From a virus, in the IMG/VR virus record IMGVR_UViG_3300042541_000187, positions 1 through 36,469 of that record: a stretch of 36,469 nucleotides of DNA; one strand, given 5' to 3'. Shown piece by piece: positions 5,120 to 13,717 of this stretch. The notes beneath the pieces were generated by a model, which saw only the letters and a list, made by a program, of their open reading frames with translations, was not told the origin of the DNA and did no database searches. The first letter of the stretch is position 1, and each line of letters begins with the position of its first letter. The translations under genes were made by a program, and so were the position numbers.

Positions 5120-5361
5120 GGTTTCTTCTTTGGTAGGGGTGCCCAAAAATTCCAGAACTGGGTTTCATTGGGCCGGTGGAAATACTGACCCAGCGAAGCC
5201 ACGCCACCTCGCCCAAGCAGGAGGATTTTCACACCGGTCGGTGTTGTGTGGTCAATCGGTATCCAGTAATAGTCGGTGGAAACCACGGCTGCCTTGGTGC
5301 TGTCCAGCCTGAACTTCTGCTCCATCTCGATGCGCTCAAATTCATCGTCTTCGTTTACCAC
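5116..5361 (-). CDS. Conserved phage protein 'YYWIPIDHTTPTG' (81 aa, GTG start)
   Basis: The start is GTG at 5361, overlapping the stop of the 31-aa gene upstream by 7 bases. The charged N-terminus precedes a conserved core, YYWIPIDHTTPTGVKILLLG, then a Gly-rich strand (RGGVASLGQY), and ends in FWAPLPKKKP. Proteins with this core are frequent in accessory regions of proteobacterial phages and have no assigned function. The core looks like a small beta domain. Confidence 0.75.
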   Translation of the reverse strand: MVNEDDEFERIEMEQKFRLDSTKAAVVSTDYYWIPIDHTTPTGVKILLLGRGGVASLGQYFHRPNETQFWNFWAPLPKKKP

Positions 5362-5450
5362 GGTGCGTCCTCATGATTGTTGGGGTTGAATGGTACTGGC
5401 TTGGCTGGTTGGGGCTTGGGTAGCTCAAGGGGGAAGGGCCAGATGGTCAT
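5355..5450 (-). CDS. Proline-rich micro-protein (31 aa)
   Basis: This frame begins at the ATG at 5450, whose ribosome binding site (AAGGAG, 8 bases away) is the same repeated LKERNT sequence that serves the genes upstream in the array. It reads MTIWPFPLELPKPQPAKPVP... and ends EDAPW, with 9 prolines in 31 residues. The stop overlaps the GTG start of the next gene. Strict fit at both junctions argues that it is translated. No function is known. Confidence 0.65.
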   Translation of the reverse strand: MTIWPFPLELPKPQPAKPVPFNPNNHEDAPW

Positions 5451-5659
5451 GTGTTGCGCTCCTTCAATACCTGTTGAGCCACGTACATCCCAGCGTGAAA
5501 TGCCAGCTTCATTTGTGAAGCAATCATGGCAGACTCTCGGTTTACATCTTCATCCGTCAGACCCTGCCACTCACGCTTCATTTGAAAGTCTTTAATGATC
5601 TGGTGGCAGTTCTTTATCTCTTCACGCAAATGTTCCAGTTCACTGATTGCTATTTTCAT
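5447..5659 (-). CDS. GLTDEE-family protein, LKERNT-ending (array member 4)
   Basis: A 70-residue protein from the ATG at 5659, which overlaps the stop of the gene upstream as ATGA; the longer frame lacks a ribosome site. The N-terminal half is a charged helix. The C-terminal half holds REWQGLTDEDV followed by a helix and the ending QQVLKERNT. The last codons (LKERNT) contain the AAGGAG site for the 31-aa gene downstream. It is the most diverged of the four paralogues near the end: the Ala-Lys before LKERNT is replaced. Confidence 0.78.
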   Translation of the reverse strand: MKIAISELEHLREEIKNCHQIIKDFQMKREWQGLTDEDVNRESAMIASQMKLAFHAGMYVAQQVLKERNT

Positions 5660-5919
5660 GTGTTGCGCTCCTTCAGTTTGGCTTCTGCCCATAAAGCGCC
5701 AAGAGCAAAATAAACCCCGTGGTCGTCCTTCTTAGCTTGATAGTCAATCTCCGTGTCCGTCAGTCCCTGCCACGGGCGTGGTCGGCATCCCTCATTAAAC
5801 CCCTCGGCAAAACCCATTGCATAGTCTGCTGATGTTGGCTCTACCTTGTTGCAGTACTCTTCCAGTGCGCGGGTATACGCAACGTGCGACACGTAGTCGG
5901 ATTCAGTTGGTCGGTTCAT
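5656..5919 (-). CDS. GLTDEE-family protein, LKERNT-ending (array member 3)
   Basis: An 87-residue protein. The N-terminus, MNRPTESDYVSHVAYTRALEE, is unrelated to that of its neighbours. The C-terminal 40 residues carry PWQGLTDTEIDYQAKKDD and end EAKLKERNT, as in the other members. Both junctions are ATGA overlaps, and the start is served by AAGGAG inside the upstream gene's last codons. Function unknown; the shared C-terminal domain with a variable N-terminus suggests exchange of the front part. Confidence 0.78.
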   Translation of the reverse strand: MNRPTESDYVSHVAYTRALEEYCNKVEPTSADYAMGFAEGFNEGCRPRPWQGLTDTEIDYQAKKDDHGVYFALGALWAEAKLKERNT

Positions 5920-6134
5920 GTGTTGCGCTCCTTTAGTTTGGCTTCAACTGCCATTGCAATCGCCATGTGATTCCCCGTCTGCCAAAACTCATCGCTCTCA
6001 ATCTGCGCGAGGTCTTCTGCTTCCAGCCCTACCCACTCACGTTGCTGTTTTCCAGCGGAATACCCAGACACATATGCCAAGTTGATTGCTTGTTTTACGT
6101 CCTCAAGCGCGTGTAGTGCTTCTTGCATTGTCAT
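5916..6134 (-). CDS. GLTDEE-family protein, LKERNT-ending (array member 2)
   Basis: A 72-residue protein from the ATG at 6134 (MTMQEALHALEDVKQAI...), overlapping the upstream stop as ATGA. An acidic helix is followed by REWVGLEAEDLAQIESDEFWQ and an Ala-rich helix ending VEAKLKERNT. The GLT motif is degenerate (GLEAED). It shares a 'D..WQ' element with the upstream member, which points to recent duplication of the C-terminal part. Function unknown. Confidence 0.78.
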   Translation of the reverse strand: MTMQEALHALEDVKQAINLAYVSGYSAGKQQREWVGLEAEDLAQIESDEFWQTGNHMAIAMAVEAKLKERNT

Positions 6135-6532
6135 GTGTTGCGCTCCTTCAGCTTGGCTTGACAAGCCAGCAACATTAACTCAGGTCGCATTTGCCAACGA
6201 TCATCACAAAGTATTTCAGCAATTTCCTCATTCGTCAGACCTACCCATTTGCGCTGTGAGCAAACGTGACCGCAGCGAGGGCAGTCAACAACCTGCTCTG
6301 GCTGTGCTGCTGGTGGGGTGGCAAAGTGATCAGCCAACTCACGCGCTTTGTGCTTGTTGATACCCTCTCGGACTAGGTTGACTACTACCATGTCGCGCCA
6401 CTGACTCGGCCCCTGCTGTGGCTGCTCCAGTGCGTTGCGGAGGGCGGTGATGGCGTCCCGCATATCGGTGTCAAGGGCGTCAGCGCCCCACAGCGCTTCC
6501 AGCGCCTGCTGCATTATTTCTCTGTGGCTCAT
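6131..6532 (-). CDS. GLTDEE-family protein with zinc-binding CxxC pair (array member 1)
   Basis: The longest of the four paralogues, at 133 residues. The N-terminal helix (MSHREIMQQALEALWGAD) plus 'DAITALRNALEQ' is common in phage proteins of this class. Residues about 81-92 are CPRCGHVC, a probable metal site. RKWVGLTNEEIAEILCDDRWQ follows, then an ending AKLKERNT. The start overlaps the stop of the 108-aa gene as ATGA. Its last codons supply the Shine-Dalgarno of the next member. Function unknown. Confidence 0.8.
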   Translation of the reverse strand: MSHREIMQQALEALWGADALDTDMRDAITALRNALEQPQQGPSQWRDMVVVNLVREGINKHKARELADHFATPPAAQPEQVVDCPRCGHVCSQRKWVGLTNEEIAEILCDDRWQMRPELMLLACQAKLKERNT

Positions 6533-7931: not shown

Positions 7932-9956
7932 TTATTTGGAATCTTTCTTCAACATCATTCCTGATGCTGTACCAGGGTCAATCACAATCCATCCGTTCTC
8001 ATGGACTTCAATCAGCTTGGCGTCTATCAAGTTGTTGATGTACCGAGCGTCTTTGCCATCAATCAAGTTTCGGCGTGAGCCATCTGCCTTTGAGCCAGGA
8101 AAGTTTGATATGCCATTGGCAACGGCGTACTCGCGCATCACTGACTTGGTAACGTAAGGTGCGCCACCTCGATCTTCTGCGTCTCCTTTCCACCAGGCTT
8201 TCTCAAAGTCGGCAAACCCCAGCGACTTATCCTTTTGCTTTGTTTCCGGCACTTCGCCCTTGATTACCACTGCGCTAGTGACCGCCTCGCCATCCTCATC
8301 AAACCAGCCGGGTATTGCCACCGAATCCAAGTCAACATAGACCGGCGCTGCCATCTCGGCGTCTTTGCTCTTGCGCTGCACAATCTCAATGGACTTGTCG
8401 CCCTTGGCGGGAATGACGCTGATCTCAATGTCCAATGCGCCACGCCATGCGGATGAGCCTCGCGCTCGGTGCTGGGCTTCCTCTGACACGCCTGTGTGGT
8501 GAACCAGAATGACGGTGCAGCCAAACTCTTGCATGAGTGCAGCGCAGGCGTCCAGCATAGTCTTGGCATCTTGAGCGCTGTTCTCATCACCGGCCATGAA
8601 GCGGTGCAAGGTGTCTACCGTAATCACATCAGGCTTGATCTTAAGCGCCCGAATGGCCTCCACCACCTTCAGATAGCCCTCTGGCGTATTCAGGTCAAGC
8701 CCCGACTTGCTGACCCACATATTCAAGTTGCTGACGCTGTTGTGGTGCTTCCAGGCTGCAATGCGTGAGCGCAGGCCGTGATGGCCTTCCCCAGCCAAAT
8801 ACACCATGTTGCCGGGTCTGACCTTGTGACCAAACCAAGTTGCTTTGCCTGATGCAATGTGCAGCATCCAGTCCAGCGTCACGAAAGTCTTGCCGCCACC
8901 GCTGGGGCCATGCACCATGACCAAAGCCTTATCTTGTATCCAGTGCTTCACAAGCCACAAGATTGGCGCAGGCTGCGCTGAAAAGCCGTCGGCATGAATA
9001 AGGTAGTCCGTCACTGGTGCAGGCGGCTTGAGCAACAAGGCTAGGTCATGCCCCGCTTGGACGTAATCATTGGCGTCGCCAAGGACGGGCGGTGTTGTCA
9101 TGCGTACCCCATACTTGGCGCTGGCCTGCTCGGCGTAGCGTTGCCCCACACCACTTGCGTCATGGTCAGCCACTATGCAAATGTCCAGCGTCGGGTGGCC
9201 TTCCTTCAGGATGCCTGTGACCGGCACAAGGTTGGACGCGCTGTAAGCCACCGCGCAGGGCTGGCCTGTCACCTCGGCAATAGTGGCGGCGGTAGCGAAG
9301 CCCTCGGCGATGTAGAGCGTAGTGGCGTCATCCATACTGCCGACCAGCCAATACATCGAGCCAGTCTGTCCACCAGGGTGATACAGCTTCCCGCCTTGAT
9401 GGTCAATGTACTGAATGCTGGATAGTTCGCCATCCTCGTTGTATAGCGGCACCATCAGCCTACCGTCACCCGTTATTCTTGCGCCATGCGTCTTGATGCC
9501 CTTGCGCTGCAAATAGGGATGCTCCGGGCTTGCTGCGCCTGCCTGCGACCAGATGAGATCGACGGTGTTGGCGGCCACCTCCCGCGCCTTTTTCACCTCG
9601 GCGTCACGCTGGGTCTTGGCCTCCGCCAAGCGCCGGGACTGCGCCATTTCCTCCACCGGAGTCAGACTGCGGCCAATGTCTGCTTTCCAACTGGATTCAA
9701 AGCCAGAACGCCAGCAGCCAAAGCGACCAGCCGGTACGCCATCACTAAAAACCACATACCAACCAGGCTTGTCGTGGCCTTTTTCGCCCTTAGTGCCACT
9801 GTTAAAGCGGTGCAATTTGCCGTCCAAATAGATCACATCTGGCGGCTTCAACCCCGCGCCAAGCATGGCATCCTTTAGTTGAATGTCAGGTGCATCTACC
9901 TGCTTTTGAGAGGGCGGCGACCAAGGGCCACCGAGAATATTTGAGAGGTCTGCCAT
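7932..9956 (-). CDS. Primase/helicase: TOPRIM domain plus RecA-like (AAA_25) helicase
   Basis: A 674-residue protein, the first gene of the left early operon. A zinc-ribbon-like or leader part (1-100) is followed by a charged helix. The TOPRIM domain has the catalytic Glu in IAEGFATAATI (about 217-226) and the acidic pair in VADHDASG (about 262-269). The RecA-like ATPase has Walker A GPSGGGKT (about 350-357), a Walker B-type strand DVITVDTLHRF and the 'VHHTG' element. The C-terminal 130 residues look like a winged helix. Such proteins prime DNA synthesis and unwind the fork. With no phage DNA polymerase in view, it likely loads the host replisome. Confidence 0.9.
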   Translation of the reverse strand: MADLSNILGGPWSPPSQKQVDAPDIQLKDAMLGAGLKPPDVIYLDGKLHRFNSGTKGEKGHDKPGWYVVFSDGVPAGRFGCWRSGFESSWKADIGRSLTPVEEMAQSRRLAEAKTQRDAEVKKAREVAANTVDLIWSQAGAASPEHPYLQRKGIKTHGARITGDGRLMVPLYNEDGELSSIQYIDHQGGKLYHPGGQTGSMYWLVGSMDDATTLYIAEGFATAATIAEVTGQPCAVAYSASNLVPVTGILKEGHPTLDICIVADHDASGVGQRYAEQASAKYGVRMTTPPVLGDANDYVQAGHDLALLLKPPAPVTDYLIHADGFSAQPAPILWLVKHWIQDKALVMVHGPSGGGKTFVTLDWMLHIASGKATWFGHKVRPGNMVYLAGEGHHGLRSRIAAWKHHNSVSNLNMWVSKSGLDLNTPEGYLKVVEAIRALKIKPDVITVDTLHRFMAGDENSAQDAKTMLDACAALMQEFGCTVILVHHTGVSEEAQHRARGSSAWRGALDIEISVIPAKGDKSIEIVQRKSKDAEMAAPVYVDLDSVAIPGWFDEDGEAVTSAVVIKGEVPETKQKDKSLGFADFEKAWWKGDAEDRGGAPYVTKSVMREYAVANGISNFPGSKADGSRRNLIDGKDARYINNLIDAKLIEVHENGWIVIDPGTASGMMLKKDSK

Positions 9957-10068: not shown

Positions 10069-10734
10069 ATGGCTATTTCGTTGAAACGCACCGCAGGCAT
10101 GATTGCCAATGGTGTCAAGCTGCTTGTCTACGGGCAAGCTGGGGCTGGCAAGACCAGTCTTATCAAGACTTTACCGCATCCCGTGGTGTTGTCAGCAGAG
10201 GGGGGTTTGCTGTCTATTGCGGACGCAGACCTGCCGTACATTGAGATCGCCTCAATGGATGACTTACGCGAGGCTTACGCTTGGGTCATTGAATCTGAGT
10301 ACAAGTCGGTGGCATTGGACAGCATCTCCGAGATTGCCGAGGTCTGCTTAAACCATGAGAAAAAGATCAACAAAGACCCACGCGCTGCCTACGGCTCTAT
10401 GGCCGAGCAAATGAGCGACATTATTCGTGCCTTCCGCGACATTCCCGGACGCCACGTGCTGATGACCGCCAAGTTGGAAAAGACCCAAGACGAGATGGGT
10501 CGGGTGCTGTATTCGCCCTCTATGCCCGGCAACAAGACCGGGCAGGCATTGCCTTACTTCTTTGACGAGGTGTTGGCTCTGCGAGTTGAAAAGGATGCCG
10601 AGGGCGGTACTCAACGCGCCTTGATGTGCGACAGCGACGGCCTGTGGCTTGCCAAGGATCGTAGCGGCAAGTTGGGAACCTGGGAAGCGCCAGACCTTGG
10701 CGAGATCATCAATAAGATTGGCGGTGCAGCATGA
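10069..10734 (+). CDS. Sak4-like RecA-fold ATPase (AAA_24), single-strand annealing/recombination
   Basis: A 221-residue protein with a good AGGAG site. Walker A is GQAGAGKTSLI (about 24-34), Walker B is SVALDSISEI (about 83-92), and the 'MTAKLEKTQDEMGRVLYSPSMPGNKTGQALPYFFDEVLAL' region is typical of the phage Sak4-like family, short RecA/Rad51-core proteins that promote annealing together with a ssDNA-binding protein. Such an SSB (11299) lies two genes on in the same operon. It ends in an ATGA overlap. Confidence 0.88.
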   Translation: MAISLKRTAGMIANGVKLLVYGQAGAGKTSLIKTLPHPVVLSAEGGLLSIADADLPYIEIASMDDLREAYAWVIESEYKSVALDSISEIAEVCLNHEKKINKDPRAAYGSMAEQMSDIIRAFRDIPGRHVLMTAKLEKTQDEMGRVLYSPSMPGNKTGQALPYFFDEVLALRVEKDAEGGTQRALMCDSDGLWLAKDRSGKLGTWEAPDLGEIINKIGGAA

Positions 10735-11298: not shown

Positions 11299-11796
11299 AT
11301 GGCTTTCCTCGACGAAGAATTTACCCTCGACACCCTTCCCGTTGGCAACACCGGAAACTTTGACCCACTGCCGGAGGGCTGGTACAACTCCAGCATTACC
11401 GGCGCTGAGATCAAGGCTACCAAGGCAGGTGACGGCAAGTACATTGCTGTCAAGTACACCATCACCGGCCCGTCGCATCAAGGCCGGGTTATCTTTGGAA
11501 ACCTGAACATCAAGAACGCCAGCACCAAGGCCGAGGAGATTGGACGCCAGCAGCTTGGCGAGATCATGCGAGCCATTGGCTTGGCAAAGGTGACGGACAC
11601 TGACCAACTGATTGGCGGAAACCTGGGCATCAAGTTGGTCGTCAAGACTGGTGAGTATGCAGGCAACGAGATCAAAAGCTACCGCGCACTGGGCGGCGTG
11701 ACACCTGCGGCGGTTGCGCCATTCAAGCCTGTTGGGCCGTCTGCGGCTGCTGGTATGCCTGCTGCTAAGTCTGCGCCACCGTGGGCTAAGAAGTAA
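11299..11796 (+). CDS. ssDNA-binding protein, DUF669 type
   Basis: A 165-residue protein. The opening 'MAFLDEEFTLDTLP', the 'PLPEGWY' motif, the OB-fold-like strands (IAVKYTITGPSHQGRVIFGNLNI) and the C-terminal 'KSAPPWAKK' tail are all typical of the DUF669 phage SSB-like family. It would coat single strands for the Sak4-like ATPase and nuclease encoded beside it. The AAGGA site lies 5-8 bases upstream. After its stop comes a 152-base gap with RNA structure. Confidence 0.88.
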   Translation: MAFLDEEFTLDTLPVGNTGNFDPLPEGWYNSSITGAEIKATKAGDGKYIAVKYTITGPSHQGRVIFGNLNIKNASTKAEEIGRQQLGEIMRAIGLAKVTDTDQLIGGNLGIKLVVKTGEYAGNEIKSYRALGGVTPAAVAPFKPVGPSAAAGMPAAKSAPPWAKK

Positions 11797-11948: not shown

Positions 11949-12962
11949 ATGAGAATCCCTGAGCCAGATATTACCATCACCAGCCTGATTGATCAAGCTC
12001 ACGAGGCCCGGACTGAGAAGCCCCGCGCCCATATGGGTTGCAGCACATTGGGCCATCACTGCGAACGCTGGCTCTGGCTTTCGTTTCGTTGGGCGGTGGT
12101 TGAGAAGTTCCAAGGACGCATCCTGCGACTGTTCAGGCGTGGTCAGAACGAGGAAGCGCAGATCATCAGCGATCTCCGCGCCATTGGCATGAGCGTGAGC
12201 GGAACCCAACGCCGGGTGAACTTTGGCAGCCACGTTAGCGGGAGCCTGGACGGTATCGGCAAGGGCGTACCCGGTGCGCCTAAGACTGAACACGTATTAG
12301 AGTTCAAAACCCACAGTCTGAAATCATTTAATGACCTGGAGAAAAATGGCGTGGCAAAGAGTAAGCCCCAGCATTTCACCCAGTGCCAAGTGTATATGCA
12401 CGGCACCGACCTGAAACGTGCCCTGTACGTGGCCGTCTGCAAGGACGACGACCGCATCTACACCGAGCGCCTGGAGTACGACCGAGAACACGCCATCAAA
12501 GCCATCGACAAGGGCCAGCGGCTGGCGCTGACTGACCGCCTGCCACCGCCCATTAGCACAGACCCGACATGGTTTGAGTGCAAGATGTGCGCGGCCCATG
12601 ACTTCTGCCACGGTTCAAAGACCACCAAGCAGGTCAACTGCCGAACCTGCGCCCACATCACGCCGCTATCTGATTCGACATGGCACTGCGCCAAATGGGA
12701 CGCCATCGTGCCGCTAGACGCCCAGCATACCGGCTGCGAGAGTCACGTTATCCATCCTGATCTGGTGCCCTGGAAACGCCTAGAGGGTCCAAGCGATTGG
12801 GTTGCAGTCTATGAGATTGACGGGCAGGGCATTGCCAATGGCGAACCCGGCGAGGGTGTGTACGGTAGCAAAGAACTGTTGGCTAATGCTGCGGCCTGCG
12901 TGGCTGCTGACCCGATGGTCATGGCGCTGCGGAAGGAATGGGATGGAAGGGTAGTGGGATGA
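11949..12962 (+). CDS. Cas4-like PD-(D/E)XK nuclease
   Basis: A 337-residue protein. The nuclease core has GSLDGI (Asp at about 99), EFKTHS (E-x-K at about 118-120), and a Q..Y element in 'FTQCQVYMHG'. Cysteines near the N-terminus (GCSTLGHHCERW, about 31 and 37) and in CKMCAAHDFC (about 212-220) suit the Fe-S cluster of Cas4/RecB-family phage exonucleases. The remaining 110 residues contain a second Cys-rich part (CRTCAH...WHC...GC). It likely makes 3' overhangs for the annealing proteins encoded just upstream. Confidence 0.82.
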   Translation: MRIPEPDITITSLIDQAHEARTEKPRAHMGCSTLGHHCERWLWLSFRWAVVEKFQGRILRLFRRGQNEEAQIISDLRAIGMSVSGTQRRVNFGSHVSGSLDGIGKGVPGAPKTEHVLEFKTHSLKSFNDLEKNGVAKSKPQHFTQCQVYMHGTDLKRALYVAVCKDDDRIYTERLEYDREHAIKAIDKGQRLALTDRLPPPISTDPTWFECKMCAAHDFCHGSKTTKQVNCRTCAHITPLSDSTWHCAKWDAIVPLDAQHTGCESHVIHPDLVPWKRLEGPSDWVAVYEIDGQGIANGEPGEGVYGSKELLANAAACVAADPMVMALRKEWDGRVVG

Positions 12963-12988
12963 ATGTTTCATCAAGCCTTGAAATAACG

Positions 12989-12994
12989 TATAAT
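12989..12994 (+). promoter_or_regulatory. -10 box TATAAT of the GIY-YIG gene, apparently leaderless
   Basis: A perfect TATAAT ends 6 bases before the ATG at 13001, so transcription would start at or next to the start codon. The -35 region at the proper distance (TTTCAT, 12966-12971) is weak. No Shine-Dalgarno precedes this ATG. Mobile endonuclease genes often carry their own promoter, which fits. Confidence 0.5.
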
Positions 12995-13000
12995 CAAAAC

Positions 13001-13717
13001 ATGAAAACATATTACGTTTACCTTCACACACGCAATGACACCGGCAAAGTTTTTTACGTTGGCAAAGGTCGAGGCAGACGCGCTTGGTGGAAAAACGGAA
13101 GAAATAGACATTGGCATTTTGTGGCTAAAAAGCATGGGTATGAGGTGCATATTTGGCGTGATGAATTGACCGAGGTTCAAGCATTTGAAATTGAAAAAGA
13201 ACGTATTTCTTTTTACGGAAGAAATAACTTGTGCAATTACACCGATGGTGGAGATGGAACTTCTGGAACTAAAAAAACTGAAGCTCAAAAATTGCATATA
13301 AAAGAAAAAATGATTGGACGCAAATTTAGCGAGCAAACTTTAGAGCAAATGAAAATTGCAGCCAGTCAAAGATCAAAGGAAACAAGACAAAAACAAGCTG
13401 ATGCAATACGTGGAAGAAAACATAGCAAAGAACACAAACAAAAAATATCTGCGGCAGGAATTGGAAGAATTACAACGGAAGAAACCAAGAAAAAAATATC
13501 AGATGCTCATAAAGGAAAACCAAAATCAGCAGAGGCTGTAAAAAAAATGGCTCAATCAAAATCAAAACAAGTTATGTGTTTAACCAATAACACAATTTAT
13601 GAATCACAAAGAGAAGCAGCGCGTCAATTGAATTTAAAAAGTTCACACATTAGCGCCGTTGTAAATGGAAAAGCGCATCAAACCAAAGGTTTTGTTTTTG
13701 TATCGGTGCAATCATGA
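13001..13717 (+). CDS. GIY-YIG homing endonuclease with NUMOD DNA-binding repeats
   Basis: A 238-residue reading from the ATG at 13001; an ATGA-coupled start at 12959 would add 14 residues. The catalytic domain begins YYVYLHTRNDTGKVFYVGKG, with the 'VYL...FYVGKG' motif replacing GIY-YIG, and continues to about residue 95. NUMOD3-like repeats follow (GRKFSEQTLEQMK, GRKHSKEHKQKIS, ...KGKPKSAEAVKKMA). A C-terminal helix-turn-helix of NUMOD1 type ends it (YESQREAARQLNLKSSHIS). It is far more AT-rich than its neighbours, as expected of a recent insert. It ends in an ATGA overlap with the helicase gene. Confidence 0.88.
   Translation: MKTYYVYLHTRNDTGKVFYVGKGRGRRAWWKNGRNRHWHFVAKKHGYEVHIWRDELTEVQAFEIEKERISFYGRNNLCNYTDGGDGTSGTKKTEAQKLHIKEKMIGRKFSEQTLEQMKIAASQRSKETRQKQADAIRGRKHSKEHKQKISAAGIGRITTEETKKKISDAHKGKPKSAEAVKKMAQSKSKQVMCLTNNTIYESQREAARQLNLKSSHISAVVNGKAHQTKGFVFVSVQS

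Follow-up and report, generated by a model that had tools for sequence, protein, structure and literature searches.

Two models of phage mosaicism have been described: in one, homologous recombination takes place at short boundary sequences that are conserved; in the other, recombination is illegitimate and selection follows (PMC3233612). The boundary-sequence model was credited to Clark 2001 and to Susskind & Botstein 1978 (cited in PMC3233612). The dispute between exchange guided by boundary sequences and random joining with later selection is an old one. In Cluster K mycobacteriophages, a short repeated translation-start element (SAS/ESAS) is found before many small unrelated genes, and SAS was proposed by its authors as a possible target of homologous recombination (PMC3203893). 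Relaxed recombination by phage Rad52-like recombinases exchanges gene fragments via imperfect, short border homology (PMC3945230).

A phage locus was analysed in which one DNA stretch encodes a protein end, forms a ribosome site with its start codon and acts as the point of exchange. The window, that is, the whole stretch of 36,469 nt that was analysed (IMG/VR virus record IMGVR_UViG_3300042541_000187), encodes a P22-like portal and a set of proteins for recombination, namely a Sak4-like annealing protein, an SSB, a Cas4-type exonuclease and an endonuclease VII-like protein. It was compared with metagenome contigs or MAGs, plus lambda, and individual loci are given below by L numbers. In the open-access literature, the general mosaicism model and SAS were found, and no description of the LKERNT junction.

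Anatomy of the cassette array and constraint on its junction

Four consecutive overlapping minus-strand genes, spanning 6532 to 5447, ended in LKERNT followed by the stop codon, as an earlier note on this DNA had claimed. They belong to an extended run of small genes on the minus strand, many of them ATGA-joined, downstream of a primase/helicase gene (7932–9956). All four endings contained the identical 18-mer AAGGAGCGCAACACATGA, which reads AAGGAG-CGCAACAC-ATGA. The layout was that given in the earlier note: AAGGAG and an 8-nt spacer are followed by the ATG of the next gene, which overlaps the TGA, and the ATGA is at once the stop of the upstream gene and the start of the downstream gene. A Shine-Dalgarno (SD) sequence inside the upstream gene together with overlapping stop and start codons is the anatomy of a coupled pair. 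Shuffled windows had a mean of 0.04 junction sites with up to 3 mismatches, and four sites occurred in 0 of 100 shuffles. The genes and junction copies were as follows.

6131–6532, minus strand: cassette gene 1, 133 aa; N-terminal part plus W-GLT tail, ending in LKERNT; L044 has its tail with a different N-terminal part
5916–6134, minus strand: cassette gene 2, 72 aa; start inside the repeat (ATGA overlap); tail also in L031, L054, L107 and L124 with other N-terminal parts
5656–5919, minus strand: cassette gene 3, 87 aa; tail also in L035 behind a different N-terminal part
5447–5659, minus strand: cassette gene 4, 70 aa; of 48 contigs found, most have residues 28–70 and only a few have the whole protein
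5355–5450, minus strand: fifth gene, 31 aa; uses the last junction as its start and is without the repeat; the same junction precedes its sequence in L128 and L184
6131–6148, minus strand: junction copy 1, AAGGAG-CGCAACAC-ATGA; end of gene 1, ribosome-binding site (RBS) and start of gene 2
5916–5933, minus strand: junction copy 2, 18-mer match
5656–5673, minus strand: junction copy 3, 18-mer match; with copy 1, the ends of the 475-bp deletion in L044
5447–5464, minus strand: junction copy 4, 18-mer match

Gene 1 starts outside the span of 5447–6164 given in the earlier note, at 6532, and gene 2 starts at the ATG at 6134, position 6164 being only the mechanical TTG start of the open reading frame. 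The common tail WxGLTxEE...AKLKERNT, also proposed there, held as a consensus and not literally, as gene 2 has WVGLEAED and gene 4 ends in QQVLKERNT. The N-terminal parts were unrelated, as had been stated, without mutual similarity except for an 8-residue match at chance level, and the fifth gene indeed used the last copy without bearing the repeat itself. The WPFP.ELP...PFNP.NHEDAPW peptide, which is a short gene at window 5355–5450, was the tail of longer proteins elsewhere (L076, L096, L128, L184), and this peptide is another exchangeable end module.

Codon usage was counted at 170 KLKERNT ends. The Thr codon was ACA in at least 133 (a lower bound), ACT in 34, ACG in 3 and ACC in 0, the ACT, ACG and ACC matches being listed in full. 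ACA, ACT and ACG are exactly the codons that, with TGA, give an ATG, TTG or GTG start. The stop after KLKERNT was TGA in 170 of 170, and a scan across the contigs for versions ending in TAA or TAG found none. The Lys of KE was AAG in 168 of 170, compared with a background of 54% in long ORFs. Constraint was greatest at the SD and start letters, and the spacer codons were also kept (CGC 155/170, AAC 145/170). Free synonymous divergence, which the earlier note had named as evidence against its reading, was absent inside and after the SD part; synonymous choice was free only in the preceding Lys and Leu codons.

The junction element stands directly 5' of the start codons of many small genes. The same 18-mer also precedes genes without an LKE-coding gene ahead, either in leaders or behind endings such as ...FWKERNT and ...QLCKERNT. 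In a sample of 47 contigs collected by the gene 4 tail and not by the junction, GGAG with a start 7–8 nt further on was kept in 45 (count read from sequence contexts), while the endings varied (LKERNT, LQERNT, LEERNT, LKERNS, LKERNNG, LKERNND). A start one letter closer gives the ending LKERNND or LKERNNG; therefore, the protein end follows the start signal. By these patterns, what is constrained at the junction is the DNA and not the peptide.

A second population (L126–L162) had ACT-TGA, with a TTG start overlapping the stop. Its downstream genes belonged mostly to few families (MKSARLPR..., MIETIRTM..., MISARLPR...), so the TTG start variant travels with the downstream gene. In L166, L169, L179, L187 and L203 (contigs of 11 to 200 kb), the 18-mer was part of the leader that precedes a 339-aa gene and did not overlap any upstream coding sequence.

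Breakpoints and re-pairing at the junction and at an intragenic hinge

Homology between contigs started or stopped within the repeat, as the earlier note had predicted. In 56 junction pairs with the upstream 60 nt in common and the downstream 60 nt not, identity was high through ATGA and at background (about 0.25) from the next base. In 49 pairs of the reverse class, upstream identity was at background and rose to about 0.96 from the first base past ATGA. The junction pair counts are not independent; where feasible, clusters were counted instead. The modules formed 159 clusters upstream and 167 downstream, in 216 pairings, which requires at least 106 switches, and about 167 unrelated downstream clusters thus stand behind the junction. 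All-against-all BLAST match ends within 100 bp piled up at −25 to +24 of the junction and at −25 to +28 of the W described below, with nearly none elsewhere.

Clean indels spanned from junction to junction, with overlaps of 19–33 bp. L044 is a natural relative of the window, and its contig has a portal of the same P22 type and a Sak4-like protein. In it, the gene 1 tail was joined straight to gene 4 across the repeat, and exactly genes 2 and 3 (475 bp) were missing. The gain, loss and swap of cassettes through the repeat copies, as proposed in the earlier note, were thus seen both in the re-pairings and in indels, one of them in this close relative; the fixed gene set that the note had held to speak against its proposal was not what the relatives had. 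Among the listed indel breakpoints off the junction and the W hinge, several were at RBS/start stretches and others elsewhere. For off-junction indels in L025/L063, L031/L195 and L089/L099, RBS/start stretches can also form the ends, for example GGAGAAAAATCATG, AAGGAGAAGACATG and AAGGACAAGAACAATG.

Within the repeat, left variants tracked the upstream gene more and right variants the downstream gene more. Agreement at the first base of the Arg codon was 0.91 between copies with the same downstream gene, 0.76 between copies with the same upstream gene and 0.67 at baseline. This gradient from 5' to 3' is as expected if crossovers fall within the repeat. The exact tract common to unrelated junction copies had a median of 12 nt and was at least 18 nt in one third; such tracts are short for homologous recombination. 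Homogenisation of the repeat within contigs was sought and none was found (median exact tract of 11 within and 12 between contigs).

The breakpoint fraction was 0.73 at the junction, 0.64 at other ATGA starts with an SD, 0.43 at other SD starts and 0.36 at random nearby sites. As a mean per site, the junction had 0.69 and other ATGA starts 0.54 (p = 8e-5; sites not fully independent). Because other SD starts were also rich in breakpoints, the pattern is due in part to selection for intact genes, with a further contribution from the junction.

A second hinge was located at W-x-GLTDEE, inside the genes, where fronts and 41-residue tails reassort independently. It was found in all four cassette genes.

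6224–6255, minus strand: intragenic hinge of gene 1 (QRxW-x-GLT-EE); breakpoint profile around W
6012–6043, minus strand: intragenic hinge of gene 2; W-x-GLT switching and front/tail re-pairing
5749–5780, minus strand: intragenic hinge of gene 3; W-x-GLT switching and front/tail re-pairing
5546–5577, minus strand: intragenic hinge of gene 4; W-x-GLT switching, front/tail re-pairing, and the distribution of residues 28–70 in contigs

Alignment on W-x-GLT showed switching from about −8 to +23 (seen in 30 pairs sharing a front and 79 pairs sharing a tail). At this hinge, 151 fronts and 125 tails occurred in 181 pairings, which requires at least 85 switches, and all four window tails recurred elsewhere behind different fronts. 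About 230 W-GLT genes were present in the loci examined, and the window tails lie within 5447–6247. LKERNT was the commonest ending of W-GLT proteins (113/234).

AlphaFold2 on 77 aligned tails predicted a confident helical hairpin (mean pLDDT 89.9), so the W hinge is placed at a predicted domain border. Tail pairs had 1140 synonymous and 936 nonsynonymous differences, where about 1:3 is expected without constraint; this synonymous excess indicates that the tails are real proteins. No family was found for the cassette genes and the tail in Pfam, PHROGs and PDB, and no Pfam or PHROGs family was common to more than 2 of the 77 W-GLTDEE tail members, the best isolated match having E = 3.8e-4. The W-x-GLTDEE...LKERNT tail is an undescribed mini-domain, and the comparison exposed it in many phage accessory proteins.

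Spread over phage backbones and recombination genes

A degenerate pattern (KLKERNT plus ATG) located the junction in at least 119 viral contig stretches. Among the 131 pattern matches listed, 130 continued into ATGA and the remaining one was cut by the contig end. The large ORFs of junction contigs belonged to many families. A P22-type portal was detected in 8 of 35 large junction contigs, 6 of these weakly, and the window core genes were present in 35 of 198 loci. Judged by these gene contents, the junction-bearing contigs are not one lineage and have unrelated backbones.

The array DNA had no match among 50,697 GenBank phage records, and the proteins of genes 1 and 3 had no match in the GenBank phage collection at E ≤ 0.01. 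In a GTDB scan, the junction occurred in two MAG contigs only, one named Comamonas and one from a beta-proteobacterium. The assignment of the hosts to betaproteobacteria is weak because it depends on these two contigs.

The window carries the following recombination genes.

10069–10734, plus strand: Sak4-like ssDNA annealing protein (phrog_124, E = 9.9e-56); candidate recombination engine
11299–11796, plus strand: single-strand DNA-binding protein (phrog_6015, E = 2.9e-25)
11949–12962, plus strand: Cas4-domain exonuclease (phrog_1990, E = 4.1e-98)

A homing-endonuclease-like protein (phrog_314, HNH C-terminus) was encoded at window 12938–13717, between the exonuclease and helicase genes. No integrase or invertase was found among the larger window proteins scanned. 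Across the 35 large junction contigs, Sak4 was detected in 4, one of them weakly, ERF in 2, and RecT over the cut-off in none; therefore, no single recombinase explains all exchanges. On the same counts, Sak4 was not supported as the common engine.

Proposed mechanism and comparison with known systems

The features established here, namely junction anatomy, DNA constraint, breakpoints at both hinges, gain and loss between copies, and spread over unrelated backbones, are probably best read as a standardised translation-coupling junction that doubles as recombination microhomology and is kept by selection for readable operons. The last codons of the upstream gene would supply the SD and the spacer of the next gene, with the TGA overlapping the next start, and judging from this anatomy a ribosome finishing one cassette would restart on the next; such coupled translation would presumably be used during infection. 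A crossover inside the junction could join, remove or insert any two junction-bearing genes, and the product would again be a correctly coupled operon. Since the coupling signal and the exchange site are one, every exchange product would be translated and the row would stay readable. The QRxWxGLTDEE stretch at the border of variable front and helical tail may likewise allow the exchange of fronts and tails. Short stretches of homology could join the pieces, with the annealing done by host enzymes or by phage recombinases, the Sak4-like protein being one example. The cassette-junction reading of the earlier note is supported; the note overlooked the intragenic W-x-GLTDEE hinge and did not see that the DNA signal takes precedence over the peptide.

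Selection alone could produce this pattern if illegitimate joins fell anywhere and the survivors had their joins at gene starts and domain borders, the junction being kept as a good coupled ribosome site and not as an exchange guide. Phage mosaicism has two standing models, and this is one of them (PMC3233612). The elevated breakpoints at SD starts without the repeat, the maximum of constraint at the SD and start letters and the short exact tracts between unrelated copies all agree with it. It does not account for the higher breakpoint density of the junction relative to other ATGA starts (on sites that are not fully independent), nor for clean indels that end in matching repeats, nor for variants inside the repeat that go with the nearer gene; moreover, the spacer CGCAAC, with no known initiation role, was kept before about 167 unrelated genes. 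We consider selection alone unlikely. The variant gradient and the indel overlaps would favour homology as the cause of the exchange, and the raised breakpoints at other SD starts would point to retention of such joins by selection.

Three further explanations were weighed. The frequency of LKERNT among W-GLT endings, and the K-L still encoded by the two codons before the SD part at which synonymous choice is free, would suit selection for the peptide itself, as a C-terminal tag, degron or docking end with the ribosome site as a by-product. For a peptide, however, endings in ACC-TGA, TAA or TAG would be equally good, yet these were absent, the DNA element was also found in leaders and behind genes with other endings, moving the start by 1 nt changed the ending to LKERNND or LKERNNG with RBS and start intact, and LQERNT and LEERNT kept GGAG. 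On the codon and leader evidence, a causal role of peptide function was rejected and is very improbable. That metagenome assembly created the re-pairings as chimeras, with joins at the repeat, might be suspected from the origin of the comparison sequences, which except for lambda are metagenome-derived contigs or MAGs; it is, if anything, still less credible, given that identical re-paired combinations were recovered from separate metagenomes (e.g., L252/L253/L255/L256, L231/L232, L223/L224 and L218/L219). The shared tracts (median 12 nt) are also below the usual assembly overlaps, which are longer. A short common sequence and a head-to-tail cassette layout recall an integron, but site-specific or integron-like recombination targeting the junction was rejected for want of an enzyme and a palindromic site and has almost no probability left: the scan of larger window proteins yielded neither integrase nor invertase, the site is not palindromic, lacks an inverted core and is variable at many positions, and other common stretches such as the W hinge behave alike.

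The preferred reading, a coupling junction that doubles as recombination microhomology, may extend further. Unrelated backbones, probably of betaproteobacterial phages, might use one interoperable accessory-gene format (junction plus tail hinge) that is kept for productive exchange, with homology-driven crossovers in mixed infection; we put this forward tentatively and with rather less than even confidence. The array offers a natural data set on mosaicism, with more than 100 independent-looking exchanges at one 18-letter site and dozens at a second. For engineers, such junctions may be natural plug-in gene junctions that would still be translated after reordering.

The lambda nin region resembles the window in that its small genes are arranged head to tail and overlap by ATGA. 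In the lambda record J02459 (39500–44900, L163), four nin boundaries had an SD-like stretch and GCATGA in common, and the upstream proteins ended in -RAA, -REAA, -SEAA and -GEGA. The nin boundaries are the same principle in miniature, sharing about 6–10 nt, whereas the window-type junction has 18–27 nt that are nearly identical. As at lambdoid-type boundaries, a short common sequence stands at the borders of unrelated genes and breakpoints fall within it; in contrast to them, the window-type junction is spread over unrelated phages, has a fixed 6-residue end and is accompanied by a second hinge inside genes. Arbiol et al. 2010 reportedly treated T4-type mobile regulatory cassettes, which by the title are short repeated regulatory elements mediating modular gene shuffling; these cassettes are said to be intergenic promoter/stem-loop elements and not coding-overlap ribosome sites. 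SAS is GGGATAGGAGCCC, and ESAS has a 17-bp inverted repeat, so the junction is not an SAS by sequence; unlike the junction, SAS is not described as coding for a common protein end or overlapping a stop codon. Relaxed recombination was described for Redbeta-type proteins of E. coli phages (PMC3945230), whereas here Sak4 occurs in the lineage of the window and is absent from most contigs. The principle is known; what is new, and unusually clear in this array, is that the codons of a fixed peptide do double duty and that a further hinge lies inside the genes. The array is also set apart by how many re-pairings there are and by its distribution across unrelated phages.
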